DNA of 64,000 nt from Insolitispirillum peregrinum (lineage in GTDB: Bacteria; Pseudomonadota; Alphaproteobacteria; Rhodospirillales; Rhodospirillaceae). Location of the stretch: assembly GCF_900156605.1 (NCBI RefSeq), contig NZ_FTOA01000006.1, positions 62,001 to 126,000 of the forward strand, given 5' to 3'. Positions 4,310-63,557 of this stretch are shown here, piece by piece. The first letter of the stretch is position 1, and each line of letters starts with the position of its first letter. The notes beneath the pieces are model-generated. The model saw nothing but the letters and a program-made list of their open reading frames with translations. It was not told where the DNA came from and searched no databases. The translations under genes were made by a program, and so were the position numbers.

Positions 4310-4538
4310 CACAACAGGCTCCTGAGCGGGGGTGTTGCGGGGGGAACGCGGGCAACACCCCAGAGTAAAGGCGCGGAAAATCGTCTTTTTTGTGCAAATG
4401 CACATTTGGTGTGCAATGCGGTAGAAAGCTGATTTTTTCGGCAGGTCGATTACAGCGCCGCAATACCTGATAGAGCAAATTGGCATTTCTCATTGACCCC
4501 ATAAATATGATTTATGGGCTGTGTGTCGCCTTTGTTTT

Positions 4539-4631
4539 AGAGCGTTTTCACACCGAGCGAAAACGCTCTCCCTTTTTAGTGCCGCATTTTCCGAGCCGTT
4601 GACCGGAGACGGTCAACTTGAAAATGCTCTC
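4539..4631 (+). repeat. Intergenic hairpin repeat, family B copy 1
   Basis: About 93 bp nearly identical to a second copy at 23421-23511. It starts with a hairpin (AGAGCGTTTT ... AAAACGCTCT), then a second structure where GCATTTTC pairs with GAAAATGC around the inner stem GTTGACC/GGTCAAC. It lies just upstream of the ribosome site (AAGGAG) of the LysR gene at 4646, so it would be in that gene's leader. Confidence 0.85.
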
Positions 4632-5626: not shown

Positions 5627-5733
5627 AGCATTTCTCGGTCTCCAAGGATCACGATAAATGCTCTAATGATTTGTTATTTAAGCAAATACGTCGTCGCAGA
5701 TGTGTCCATCTGCTCGGGATTTGCTCTAACCGG
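5624..5733. repeat. Composite intergenic hairpin repeat, family C copy 1
   Basis: Two adjacent inverted repeats. The first has arms TAGAGCATTT (5624-5633) and AAATGCTCTA (5656-5665). The second runs from AGCAAATACGTCGTCGCAGATG to CATCTGCTCGGGATTTGCT, with GCAGATG/CATCTGC and GCAAAT/ATTTGC stems. The second part recurs twice near 54472-54570. It fills the whole gap between the LysR gene and the convergent ammonium transporter gene and may work as a bidirectional terminator. Confidence 0.8.
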
Positions 5734-5746
5734 GAGATGACCCTGT

Positions 5747-6967
5747 TTACGGGGCCATGTCCTGTTCCGGGGTGGCAGTGATCTGGTGGATCGACAGATC
5801 GGCGCCACGGTGTTCTTCTTCCTGCGACAGGCGAATGCCGACGGTCCGTTTCAGCAGGCCATAGACCACAAAGCCCATTGCTCCGGCATAGCTGACCCCG
5901 GCCAGCGAGCCGATCAGTTGCGACCACGGACTGACGCCGCCCATGCCGCCGAGGGCTTCGAGGCCGAACACCCCAGCCAGAATGCCACCCAGCAGGCCGC
6001 ACAGGCCGTGTAACGGCCACACGCCCAGCACATCATCCAGCTTCCAGTCTTTCTGACAGCGGTCAAAGCCCCAGACGAACAGCGCCCCGGCGGCGCAGCC
6101 AACCACCAGCGCCCCCAGCGGATGCATGACATCCGAACCGGCGCAGACCGCTACCAGCCCGGCCAGCGCGCCGTTGTGGGTAAAGCCCGGATCGTTGCGG
6201 CCAACCACCAGCGCGGTCAGCATGCCGCCGACCATCGCCATCAGCGAGTTCATCGCCACCAGCCCCGAGGCGGTGGCGGTGTTCTGGCTGGACATGACGT
6301 TAAAGCCGAACCAGCCAACGATCAGGATCCACGACCCCAGCGCCAGATAGGGAATGTTGGACGGCGGCACCCCCATCAGACGGCCATCGCGGCTGTAGCG
6401 GCCCATACGGGGGCCGAGATGATGGACAGCCCCCAGCGCCAGCCAGCCGCCGACGGCATGGACGACGATGGACCCGGCGAAGTCGTGGAACGGCGCGTCA
6501 AAGGTATCTTTCAGCCAGTCCTGAATGCCGAAATGGTTGCCCCAGACGATGCCTTCAAAGAACGGATAGACCAGCCCGACCAGAATCGCCGTTGCCATCA
6601 GTTGCGGCACAAAGCGGGCGCGTTCGGCGATGCCGCCCGAGATGATCGCCGGAATGGCGGCGGCAAACATCAGCAGGAAGAAAAAGCGCACCAGATCGAT
6701 GCCCTGCGCCCCCATCGCACCATCAATGCCCGCCTTGCCGGACAGGACGGCGGCGCTGTGGAAAAAGGTCACGCCATACGCAACGGTGTAGCCGACAATC
6801 AGATAGGCCAGCGTCGAGATGCCGAGATCGGCGAGAATCTTCACCAGCGCGTTGACCTGATTTTTCGACCGGACGGTTCCGGCTTCGAGGAAGGCGAATC
6901 CTGCGTGCATCGCAAGGACCATGGCGGCCCCGATCAGCAGGTAAAAGACGTCCAGCCCTGCATTCAT
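5747..6967 (-). CDS. amt: Ammonium transporter (Amt family)
   Basis: An integral membrane Amt/MEP channel of about 406 residues that takes up NH4+/NH3, of the type without a cleaved signal (MNAGLDVFYLLIGAAMVLAMHAGFAFLEAG at the N-terminus, of which only the first residues need be cited). Eleven hydrophobic segments and the conserved DFAGSIVVHAVGG, VFGLEALGG-type regions are visible. Two ATGs compete: 6976 has GAGG only one base away, while 6967 has it at about ten bases, so 6967 is preferred. No glnK gene is adjacent, which is unusual because amtB is often paired with glnK. A sigma-54-like promoter lies about 60 bp upstream, fitting nitrogen control through NtrC. Confidence 0.92.
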   Translation of the reverse strand: MNAGLDVFYLLIGAAMVLAMHAGFAFLEAGTVRSKNQVNALVKILADLGISTLAYLIVGYTVAYGVTFFHSAAVLSGKAGIDGAMGAQGIDLVRFFFLLMFAAAIPAIISGGIAERARFVPQLMATAILVGLVYPFFEGIVWGNHFGIQDWLKDTFDAPFHDFAGSIVVHAVGGWLALGAVHHLGPRMGRYSRDGRLMGVPPSNIPYLALGSWILIVGWFGFNVMSSQNTATASGLVAMNSLMAMVGGMLTALVVGRNDPGFTHNGALAGLVAVCAGSDVMHPLGALVVGCAAGALFVWGFDRCQKDWKLDDVLGVWPLHGLCGLLGGILAGVFGLEALGGMGGVSPWSQLIGSLAGVSYAGAMGFVVYGLLKRTVGIRLSQEEEHRGADLSIHQITATPEQDMAP

Positions 6968-23368: not shown

Positions 23369-23420
23369 TCCCTCCCTCGAACTCCCATTTTTCTTGAAAA
23401 TCAAGGGGGGCCGGGGCCTT

Positions 23421-23545
23421 AGAGCGTTTTCACACCGAGCGAAAACGCTCTTCCCTTTTAGTGCCGCATTTTCCGAGCCGTTGACCGTCGACGGTCAACT
23501 TGAAAATGCTCCAAGGCCCCGGCGAGGTGTGGAGCAGCGCTCCAT
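23421..23545. repeat. Family B repeat copy 2 followed by family D element
   Basis: 23421-23511 matches the repeat at 4539-4631 (stem AGAGCGTTTT/AAAACGCTCT; inner palindrome GTTGACCGTC-GACGGTCAAC is perfect here). It abuts 23514-23545, a 31-base block whose reverse complement recurs at 62435-62465 with 30 of 31 bases identical and contains the small palindrome TGGAGC-AGC-GCTCCA. The pair fills the gap between the DUF5655 gene and the convergent LysR gene. Confidence 0.85.
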
Positions 23546-37403: not shown

Positions 37404-37919
37404 CAGGGAGTTCCGGTGCTGTTGAAAAATCGTCTGAAGAGAGGCGATCAGCCACAGGAGGGCATTCCGGCAGAGCGGACTCTGACGGTGCACAGGCAAG
37501 GGCTGTGAAAGCGCGCACGAGAACAGGGCTGCCTTCAGAAAGCAGCAGTCAATCGTAGCGACATGGGTCTGCAAAAGCAGACGTTTTGATGATGCGGATC
37601 GAATGCCGAAAGGCGATTCGTCGCTGATGTGTGATTTTTGTATCATGATGTGAGCGGATTTGTCAAATTTGTACTATTTAATTTTTATTTGTGTCGTCAA
37701 TTATATTTGACATTTAACTTCTTGTTCTGCGGGAATATCTTTTTATTCTGAAAGTATGGGGTGGATTTATTGTAAGTTTTTGGCGGCCGGTTTGTTGCCT
37801 CTGGTGCAAAAAATGCAGTGTTTTACTTGGAGCAGCGGAAAAAAATGCCCCACCTTCTGCCGGGGGCATCCACTGTTTTGGGGGCTGGAAAAGTGGGGCC
37901 GTTACCCACAATCATACCA
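37404..37919. other. AT-rich divergent regulatory region between proV and the aldehyde dehydrogenase
   Basis: About 515 bp without a gene. Bases 37630-37760 are strikingly AT-rich for this genome, with runs such as TTTGTACTATTTAATTTTTA and ATTATATTTGACATTTAAC, and must contain the promoter region for proVWX (minus) and perhaps for the dehydrogenase (plus). TTGACA-like hexamers occur on both strands but no single promoter is convincing. A hairpin repeat lies to the right. Confidence 0.5.
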
Positions 37920-38017
37920 GTGTCCACGGACGCGGGATGGTTCCACGCCGGTCTAACCTTTTGGTGTGCCGCATTGTTGTTGCGAAAACCGGTTCCCACT
38001 TTTCGCACAATGCTCTC
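37920..38017 (-). repeat. Intergenic hairpin repeat, family A copy 1
   Basis: On the minus strand it reads GAGAGCATTGTGCGAAAAGTGG, AACCGGTTTTCGCAACAACAATGC and so on. Outer stem GCATTGT/ACAATGC, inner stem GCGAAAA/TTTTCGC. Same family as 39561-39664, 54894-54976, 62318-62553 and 62551-62654. It lies in the leader of the aldehyde dehydrogenase gene. Confidence 0.85.
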
Positions 38018-38107
38018 CTGACATTCTGCCCTGAGGATATCCGCCCCCCCCCTTTTGCCCCTGTCCAGCCCGATAGGCCGACAGACGGGCACACGAAGGA
38101 TTCCCGC

Positions 38108-39547: not shown

Positions 39548-39560
39548 AAGGCAGGTGCGG

Positions 39561-39664
39561 CTGGACCTGCGTGCGTTCAATCTGGCGCAGGCACGCTGGT
39601 CCGACCTTTTTTTGTCGCAGTGATTTTGCGCAGAACCGGAACCACTTTTGCGCTCACTGCTCTG
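39561..39664 (-). repeat. Intergenic hairpin repeat, family A copy 2
   Basis: On the minus strand AGAGCAGTGAGCGCAAAAGTGG, TTCCGGTTCTGCGCAAAATCACTGCG. The outer stem is GCAGTGA/TCACTGC and the inner one GCGCAAAA/TTCTGCGC, so base pairs differ from copies 1, 3 and 4 while pairing is kept. It follows the aldehyde dehydrogenase stop by 14 bp and may serve as its terminator. Confidence 0.85.
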
Positions 39665-39729
39665 GTGTGAATGTCACGGGCAGCGAAGGGGAGCCCTTTG
39701 CTGCCCGTTGTCAATCGACGCCCCCGGGA

Positions 39730-54867: not shown

Positions 54868-54892
54868 ATAGTATGGGGGACTATACCATACT
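54868..54892. promoter_or_regulatory. RcnR-type operator upstream of dmeR
   Basis: ATAGT-ATGGGGG-ACTAT: inverted A/T-rich half sites flanking a G-tract, the layout recognised by RcnR/FrmR-like repressors. A wider inverted repeat, AGTATGG...CCATACT, overlaps it (54870-54892). It lies about 30-50 bp before the dmeR ATG. Confidence 0.65.
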
Positions 54893-54893
54893 G

Positions 54894-54976
54894 GAGCTGT
54901 GAGCGCAAAAGTGGGAACCGGTTTTGCGCACCATCACTGCGACAAACCAAAAACTGGACCAGTGAGTCTGCGCTTT
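54894..54976 (+). repeat. Intergenic hairpin repeat, family A copy 5
   Basis: Begins GAGCTGTGAGCGCAAAAGTGG. The inner stem GCGCAAAA/TTTTGCGC is perfect and the outer one GCTGTGA/TCACTGC has one mismatch; the tail GCGACAAACCAAAAACTGGACC matches the other copies. It lies between dmeR and the phosphopantetheinyl transferase gene. Confidence 0.85.
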
Positions 54977-61609: not shown

Positions 61610-62320
61610 ATGGCGCAGCAACAGCTTCCCCTGCCTCTGGAGCACCGTCCGGCGCTGGAACAGGAAGATTTTCTGGTCGCCCCCAGCAATGCCGAAGCCG
61701 TCGCCTGGCTGGACCGCTGGCCGGACTGGCCCGCCCCGGCGTTGATCCTGCTGGGCGAAAGTGGCAGCGGAAAAAGCCATCTGGCACAGGTGTTTGCCGC
61801 CCGTTCCGGCGCACCGGTGATCGCGGGCGAGCTGGGCTTGCGGCTTGATCCACCTGCCTTGCTGGCTGCCAACGATGCGGTGGTGATCGATGATGTCGAT
61901 GCCGGAGTCCACGAAACCGATCTGTTTCACCTGTACAATCTGGCCAAGGAAACCGGCGCGACGCTGTTGCTGACCTGCACCACCCCGCCGTCGCTGTGGG
62001 TGACCCTGCCGGATTTGCGCTCGCGGCTGTCGGCGGCTCCGGCGGTGTCAATCGGACCGCCGGATGATACGGTGATGGCGGCGGTGCTGATCAAGCTGTT
62101 CAGTGACCGCCAGCTCAAGATCGGCGTCGAGGTGATCAGCTATCTGTTGCGCCACATGGAACGCAGCCATGCCGCTGCCCGGCTGGTGGTGGATGCCGCG
62201 GACCATCTGTCTCTGGTGCGGCAGCGACCGGTCACCGTGCCGCTGGTGCGCGAAATTCTGGAAAGTGTCCGCCCCAAGGGGGCCGGTGCGCTGTCCGACG
62301 AGGACGAGGACGACGAGTAG
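61610..62320 (+). CDS. hda: DnaA regulatory inactivator Hda (HdaA-like)
   Basis: A 236-residue AAA+ protein homologous to the DnaA ATPase domain; with the loaded sliding clamp it stimulates DnaA-ATP hydrolysis and prevents re-initiation. The N-terminal QQLPLPLEH is the clamp-binding motif, followed by LGESGSGKSHLAQVF (Walker A), VVIDDVD (Walker B) and an arginine finger region near SRLSAAPAVSIGPPDD. The acidic tail (SDEDEDDE) is unusual. The TAG stop is the first three bases of a family A hairpin repeat. Confidence 0.92.
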   Translation: MAQQQLPLPLEHRPALEQEDFLVAPSNAEAVAWLDRWPDWPAPALILLGESGSGKSHLAQVFAARSGAPVIAGELGLRLDPPALLAANDAVVIDDVDAGVHETDLFHLYNLAKETGATLLLTCTTPPSLWVTLPDLRSRLSAAPAVSIGPPDDTVMAAVLIKLFSDRQLKIGVEVISYLLRHMERSHAAARLVVDAADHLSLVRQRPVTVPLVREILESVRPKGAGALSDEDEDDE

Positions 62321-62553
62321 AGCGTTGTGCGAAAAGTGGGAACCGGTTTTCGCAAAAACAATGCGACAGAGCAAAAGGCCAGACCAGCGTGCCTGCGTCC
62401 GATCACAGTACAGGACAATTTGGGAACAAGGACGTGGAGCGCTGCTCCACACCTCGCTGGGGCCTCAGGTCCCGAATGGGTCTGGGCGATAGCCCATTCT
62501 TTTCCACCAACTGTCATGTATCGTGGCGTCAGGTTTAACGCACGATGGTCTAG
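62318..62553 (+). repeat. Family A repeat copy 3, interrupted by a nested element
   Basis: The left part (62318-62403) is the family A hairpin and tail (TAGAGCGTTGTGCG... GCGTGCCTGCGTCCGAT); the right end (62534-62553) is the family A end, TTTAACGCACGATGGTCTA. Copy 4 shows these parts are normally contiguous (CCGATTTAACGCACG). Between them lies about 130 bp that includes a 31-base block also found, inverted, at 23514-23545. Confidence 0.85.
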
Positions 62554-62654
62554 AGCATTGTGCGAAAAGTGGGAACCGGTTTTCGCATAAACAATGCGAC
62601 AGAACAAAAGCTTAGAGCAGCGTGCCCGCGTCCGATTTAACGCACGCTGCTCTA
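62551..62654 (+). repeat. Family A repeat copy 4 (intact)
   Basis: 104 bp bounded by TAGAGCATTGTGCG and CGCACGCTGCTCTA, an imperfect terminal inverted repeat (12 of 14). Contains the hairpin GCATTGT-GCGAAAA / TTTTCGC-ATAA-ACAATGC. The right end overlaps the UAG stop of mdcH. It touches copy 3 directly. Confidence 0.9.
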
Positions 62655-63557
62655 GTCTGCCGCCTGCACCCAGTCGATCACCCCGGCGATGGAGCGGAAT
62701 TCTGACACTGAACGCACGGGCAGGTCGGGAAAGCGGTCGCGGACCATGCGGGCCAGCCCGTTGCCCGGCCCCAGTTCCAGCAGGACGGTGCAGCCTGCCT
62801 CCCGCAGGGCGGTCATGCAGCCGGACCAGTCCACCGGCCGGGCAATCTGCGCGGCAAGAGTCTCCACCGCTCTGGCCTTGCTCCGGATCATCGAAGCGTC
62901 GATTCCGGCCACCACCGGGGCCTCATGGGCGGTCCAGCAGGCGGCAGACAGGTCCCGCCGAAAGGGCTCGACGGCGGACGCCATCACCGAGGTGTGCGAG
63001 GCGATGGTGATTTTCAACGGCGTGACCTTGGCACCACGGGTGATCAGGTCGCCTTCCAGCGCGGCCAGTTCCTCTGTCGGGCCGCCAACCACCAGCCGGT
63101 CGAGGTCGTTGATGATCGCCAGTTCGCAGGAGCGGGCCGCCAACAATGGCTCCAGCTCCGGTTGCCGCAACCCACGCACCGCCATCAATCCGCCCGCACG
63201 GGCCGACGCCGCATCCATCAAGGCCGCCCGTCTGGCCGCCAGTGCGATCACCGCCTCGGGCGCCAGGGCTCCGGCACAGCCGTGGGCGGCCAGCTCGCCG
63301 ACACTGTAGCCCGCAAGGATGCACGGGTCGGGCAGATGGGGCCGCAGAACCTGCCAGATCGCCAACTGATAGGCGCACAACGCCGGTTGCGCCACGGCAT
63401 TGAGAACCAGACGGTCCGGGGCGATGGCGCCAAGGGGCTCTTCCAGCAGGGTGGCGGCACCATCGAGAACGGGAGCGGCGGCAGCCTGTCCGGCCAGACT
63501 GTCGAACATCGCCGGTGTCTGATCCCCCTGACCGGGGCAGAGAAGACCGAGTCTCAT
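62652..63557 (-). CDS. mdcH: Malonate decarboxylase-associated acyltransferase, MdcH (epsilon subunit)
   Basis: A 301-residue acyl-carrier-protein malonyl-transferase-like protein. LLCPGQGDQTPAMF, the nucleophile Ser in AGYSVGELAAHG, and TIASHTSVM with the active His form the malonyl/acyl transferase pattern. In malonate decarboxylase systems MdcH activates the carrier with malonyl-CoA. ATG at 63557 forms a 4-base ATGA overlap with the upstream mdcB-like gene. Could also be a FabD-like protein, but the neighbour favours MdcH. Confidence 0.85.
   Translation of the reverse strand: MRLGLLCPGQGDQTPAMFDSLAGQAAAAPVLDGAATLLEEPLGAIAPDRLVLNAVAQPALCAYQLAIWQVLRPHLPDPCILAGYSVGELAAHGCAGALAPEAVIALAARRAALMDAASARAGGLMAVRGLRQPELEPLLAARSCELAIINDLDRLVVGGPTEELAALEGDLITRGAKVTPLKITIASHTSVMASAVEPFRRDLSAACWTAHEAPVVAGIDASMIRSKARAVETLAAQIARPVDWSGCMTALREAGCTVLLELGPGNGLARMVRDRFPDLPVRSVSEFRSIAGVIDWVQAAD

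Follow-up and report, generated by a model that had tools for sequence, protein, structure and literature searches.

Five places in the stretch of the Insolitispirillum peregrinum genome analysed here (contig NZ_FTOA01000006.1, positions 62,001 to 126,000; 64,000 nucleotides, hereafter the window) carry a short hairpin repeat, and the intact copy at 62551-62654 raises the question of what kind of element this is: a structured RNA, a cruciform or the end of a mobile element, the three possibilities named in an earlier note on this DNA. That note had assigned the five places to one repeat family, and a covariance model trained on 41 intact copies from the genome indeed finds all of them, with scores of 44 to 129 bits. 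Copy 1 (37910-38019, reverse strand; 77 bits) has a degraded right half, and copy 2 (39559-39666, reverse strand; 73.5 bits) carries the stem GCAGTGAGCGCAAAA ... TCACTGC. Copy 3 (54890-54972, forward strand; 44 bits) is truncated and has lost its right hairpin. Copy 4 (62318-62552, forward strand) is a composite; its length (236 bp as first delimited) is due to another repeat inserted in it, which interrupts the loop of its right hairpin, and the model match at 62316-62447 (forward strand) is the start of the interrupted copy. Copy 5 (62551-62654, forward strand) is intact including the terminal TA on either side (62551-62552 and 62653-62654), the first of which it has in common with copy 4, and is matched by the model at 62549-62657 with 129 bits. 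Two stem classes had been described, and both exist, but their membership has to be redrawn: copy 5, with the stem GAGCATTGTGCGAAAA...TTTTCGCATAAACAATGC, goes with copies 1 and 4 in the common class (GCATTG...CAATGC, TGCGAAAA...TTTTCGCA), and the second class consists of copies 2 and 3. Likewise, the core said to be common to all five copies is absent from copy 2, which has GTGGTTCCGG instead of GTGGGAACCGG. The earlier observation is, therefore, partly confirmed, being correct in the main but with two copies placed in the wrong class.

The element is non-coding, ca. 105 bp long (104-109 positions in intact copies) and consists of two hairpins, an intact copy reading Y-TAGAGCATTGTGCGAAAA-GTGGGAACCGG-TTTTCGCANNAACAATGC-GACAGAACAAAAGGT-TAGAGCAGCGTGC-loop-GCACGCTGCTCTA-R. 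Its ends follow the pattern Y-TA-GAGC...GCTC-TA-R; the outer ends are mutual inverted repeats (TAGAGCANNGTGCG), and the terminal inverted repeats TAGAGCATTGTGCG / TAGAGCAGCGTGCG are identical at 12 of 14 positions. In copy 5, folding and pair counts place the left hairpin at 62555-62597 (forward strand), with the conserved core GTGGGAACCGG as its loop at 62569-62579, and the right hairpin at 62613-62654 (forward strand), where a stem of 13 bp pairs 62613-62625 with 62642-62654. Compared with dinucleotide shuffles, this two-hairpin fold has z values of -6.4 (DNA) and -5.4 (RNA). In some copies (L061, L028, L084 and L040) the left hairpin alone is tandemly multiplied in steps of 57-58 bp, with up to four units.

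The claim that stem changes are paired, and that the folded form is kept beyond the sequence alone, is borne out by the numerous changes that affect both sides of a pair, chiefly in the right hairpin, where covariation is strongest. In a sequence-only MAFFT alignment of the 41 copies, 98.5% of the cells pair and 10 of the 30 pairs show a two-sided change, against 3.5 in shuffles and 0-5 with slid partners; eight of these 10 lie in the right stem (8 of the 13 pairs of helix 4), one pair of which occurs as GC in 22 copies, CG in 12 and UA in four. With 93 model-aligned copies, nearly all of them absent from model building, the count rises to 25 of 30 (shuffles 9.7, slid partners 7-13), in an alignment that leans towards structure. 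Because of this leaning, because the copies are paralogues and because the first 41 were gathered by their exact core, these counts are of cells, not of events. The same pattern could have arisen by template switching between the arms of imperfect palindromes instead of by selection on folding, a possible though doubtful explanation that is compatible with a mobile element. It would require no function of the fold, and it suits a set of copies that are all paralogues and whose stem haplotypes (including GAGCAGCG, GACCAGCG, GATCAGCG and GAGCTGTG) each occur with a matched partner; however, many single mismatches persist (ca. 7% of the cells in the 93 copies), and the architecture is kept across orders although the stems differ. 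Covariation among mobile palindromes is by itself no evidence for an RNA.

The genome-wide covariance model search proposed in the earlier note returned at least 150 copies in this genome, with the covariation above background just described. A search of the genome (4.6 Mb) gives 122 copies of the exact core and none of the backwards pattern. Each of 24 other genomes of the same family has the exact core 0-1 times, and among 385 sampled genomes of the class none besides the present one has a near-identical core more than twice. This lineage-specific burst of copies fits a mobile element best. In each of two genomes of the family, a single copy joins this core to another stem (e.g., GAGCGTGATC...GATCACGCTC). 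Plasmids of Sphingobium, Sphingomonas, Terrarubrum and Agrobacterium carry full-length relatives that have both hairpins and the same ends, and more diverged ones are present on plasmids of Methylobacterium and Rhizobium, so that the same architecture with different stems extends across orders, on plasmids of Sphingomonadales and Hyphomicrobiales. Literature searches with the core sequence yielded only unrelated papers.

Only 9 of 133 copies lie inside a predicted gene, the repeat being mostly intergenic. The location of 55 of the 133 beside gene 3' ends and between convergent genes would, together with the strong covariation, suit a structured RNA or a transcribed regulatory element (a 3' UTR hairpin, a terminator or an RNase-blocking stem) selected for RNA pairing. 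So would the right hairpin, where 61 G-U cells stand against 27 A-C cells, a modest excess of events that are not independent, and the T-rich stretch that follows the reverse strand of this hairpin; one copy of the element gives a terminator-like match. The left hairpin, by contrast, has no wobble preference (ca. 30 G-U and ca. 30 A-C cells once a constant T-G pair is set aside), all orientations to the genes are represented among the copies, and at gathering score no Rfam family matches the repeats, the window giving only a tRNA. An intrinsic terminator was also considered and rejected, as the terminator-like matches, including those near 62380-62496, are no commoner than in shuffles. An RNA thus finds little support and seems improbable; a role of the element as a cruciform or as single-stranded DNA is possible.

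The flanks of the copies point to insertion into DNA. In 84 clean copies a C or T precedes the left terminal dinucleotide in 88% and an A or G follows the right one in 95%; beyond this first base there is little bias, and left and right bases combine freely. TA is found on both sides in 39 of the 84 copies and otherwise there are mostly transitions on one side, as compared with paralogous empty sites only; a true empty site was not found, the genus being represented by this genome alone among those examined. Copies lying end to end have one TA in common, and a copy nested in another repeat, flanked by the dinucleotides TA and CA, fits a 2-bp target. The left and right terminal dinucleotides vary independently, and TA could, therefore, belong to the element instead of being a duplication; since the far-end dinucleotide sometimes differs from the near one, strict target duplication is unproven. 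Three copies (L045, L058 at 5690-5788, and L084) interrupt the loop of a repeat with the palindrome GGGGCC...GGCCCC and have one junction and an unusual right hairpin in common. They probably go back to one founder composite that was then copied and were, for that reason, left out as evidence for an empty site. The passages on IS711 in PMC2266754 and PMC3163539 describe duplication of TA at YTAR and insertion into Bru-RS repeats, a pattern that the TA-flanked YTAR target of the present element resembles.

The junctions also bear on the genes next to them, which were called by a simple codon model. About a third of the copies sit in the stop codon of a gene: of the 85 left ends that have TA, 31 terminate a frame open for 200 codons or more when read in the frame of the TAG, each of the two other frames giving 2, and 9 of 67 right ends close a frame at the element's TAG, against 1 and 2. 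In the window, the hdaA-like gene at 61610-62320 (forward strand), an open reading frame whose NCBIfam HdaA match runs to profile position 224 of 228, stops with a TAG (62318-62320) that is the left end of copy 4, that is, TA plus the first G of the element. On the other side, the TAG (62654-62652) of the acyltransferase gene at 62652-63557 (reverse strand) is the right end of copy 5; proteins similar to the product of this open reading frame are annotated as malonate decarboxylase subunit epsilon or as acyltransferase. With these two genes stopping on copies 4 and 5, the whole interval between them is element-derived. At 12 frame ends on the left terminus the trinucleotide at the far end of the element is TAA in eight and TAG in two; TAA at this position in other copies is limited to 13 of 72 (p = 0.001), an excess expected if a TAA is split and its TA duplicated. 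There are exceptions, with TGA at the far end of one in-frame site and TGA opposite at three right-end sites. Such exact junctions would need an insertion explanation even if the element were an RNA.

The proteins are not shortened: the 12 genes that have a usable NCBIfam model and a stop in the element reach the end of the model or nearly so (among them MadM 254/254, GlgB 606/607, DnaJ 373/374, PhnN 178/179 and HdaA 224/228). An annotated gene on one Sphingobium plasmid also ends in the element's TAG. In the sampled stretches, free YTAR sites number 43 in stops, 138 within 150 nt downstream of genes, 308 in other intergenic positions and 181 inside genes, as against 52 stops provided by the element, 38 of them preceded by C or T; once only tolerated sites are counted, the excess at stop codons is moderate. 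C or T precedes 41 of 156 free TAA/TAG stops here (26%), compared with 89 of 147 (about 60%) in two relatives, and 102 of 143 TGA stops here. The low value would fit a partial using-up of such sites, which we offer as a lead only, because the sampled stretches were chosen around elements. A literature search on insertion into stop codons found nothing on point, and this relation of the element to stop codons appears to be new.

Taking together what is directly observed (copies, termini, target context, stop-codon fusion and stem covariation), we consider it likely, with a probability of ca. 0.78, that the repeat is a non-autonomous mobile element acting at the DNA level, MITE-like and of the Bru-RS/RIME kind, which inserts at YTAR and rebuilds stop codons. 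Among the three possibilities of the earlier note it is the mobile element that fits best, with its Y-TA and TA-R junctions, the one TA between adjacent copies and the stops that are split and rebuilt. Insertion at the TA within YTAR would leave TA on both sides, as Y-TA-[GAGC...GCTC]-TA-R. Where this TA belongs to a TAA or TAG stop, TA and the element's G would form a new in-frame TAG and the old stop codon would end up beyond the far end of the element. As the TAG is rebuilt in frame, the genome would tolerate insertions in stops and between gene 3' ends, and these would build up over time. The hairpins probably persist because they are acted on by the moving machinery or by repair between the palindrome arms. 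We are somewhat inclined to think that YTAR and a first-base G make stops safe landing sites, that the stops of many genes have been replaced in this way and that the right loop is the preferred site of the second element discussed below. The genome would then offer many natural records of insertion sites, pointing to YTAR and an IS711-like mechanism, and would show how at least 150 gene-end insertions can be carried without shortening proteins.

What moved the element may have been a transposase, now lost or unrecognised and possibly of the IS5/IS427 (IS711-like) kind. The IS5-type, IS630 and Y1 searches of the genome brought up no transposase whose ends match. An IS5-type source was rejected, the two degraded remnants having no GAGC ends, and so was an origin as an IS630 MITE: the single intact IS630-like transposase gene (L097 1378-2439, G000:C4) has TATAC-type ends. 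The short intergenic hairpins, and the tandem multiplication of the left one in steps of ca. 57-58 bp, recall REP/BIME-like palindromes that are moved as single-stranded DNA by a RAYT (Y1 transposase). This origin is, however, very unlikely, as Y1_Tnp (PF01797) has no match in the whole genome and was found in 5 of 14 control genomes; inverted termini and junctions at a defined YTAR are also unlike REPs.

RUP and other TA-target MITEs are non-coding and about 100 bp long, with inverted ends and a TA target, all of which holds for the present element as well. RUP is, as is generally known, tied to IS630, whereas the IS630-like gene here has other termini. The element also resembles the repeats of Brucella and the rhizobia, which presumably have the core GAAAAGTGGGAACCGGTTTTC in common. 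Repeats of this kind have been on record for some 30 years, to our knowledge with no settled account of how they spread. Bru-RS1 and Bru-RS2 of Brucella (Halling and Bricker, 1994; cited in PMC2267715, PMC10800456 and PMC3163539) are, according to passages in these citing papers, palindromic, multicopy intergenic repeats of 103-106 bp with a conserved stem-loop, and are a target of mobile elements. The present element differs in its genome, its number of copies (at least 150) and its stem sequences; its right loop has been entered by a 179-bp palindromic element and not by IS711, and those passages make no mention of a fusion with stop codons. RIME, the Rhizobium-specific intergenic mosaic elements (Osteras et al., 1995; cited in PMC2573895 and PMC2245857), are likewise described in the citing passages as intergenic, mosaic and palindromic repeats of rhizobia, and unannotated copies on Rhizobium and Agrobacterium plasmids match our element model over its whole length. 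IS711 of the IS427 group (IS5 family) has the same YTAR target and TA at both ends in the passages of PMC2266754 and PMC3163539, but the present element has no transposase and the IS5-type fragments of the genome have no GAGC termini. The two hairpins, the ends, the YTAR target and the same architecture on other plasmids make the element, going by published descriptions of these repeats, best read as belonging with Bru-RS and RIME.

The repeat inserted in copy 4 is a second palindromic element (62404-62525, forward strand) with the form CACAGTACACGACA...TGTCGTGTACTGTG; it measures 122 bp here and usually 178-179 bp. In copy 4 it is bordered by an imperfect 9-bp target duplication (GCGTCCGAT at 62395-62403 and GCGTCAGGT at 62526-62534). 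Matched 9-bp duplications elsewhere (GCGTCCGGT/GCGTCCGGT, GCGTCAGAT/GCGTCAGAT and GCGTCATGT/GCATCATGT) differ between loci, which indicates several independent insertions into the same loop. Exact CACAGTACACGACA termini number 125 in the genome, and most sampled copies (loci L016, L039, L055, L108, L155 and L192-L221, besides that in the window), as assigned by reading their flanks, sit in right-hairpin loops; one is inserted in a different GC-rich palindrome and is flanked by an exact 9-bp duplication. The right loop as a repeated target of this second element appears to be new. A further repeat family with TTAGAGCG...CGCTCT hairpins occurs in the window at 4537-4629 and 23419-23511, in copies that are 96% identical. 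It has the same TAGAGC terminus as the present element, and both may be moved by the same machinery.
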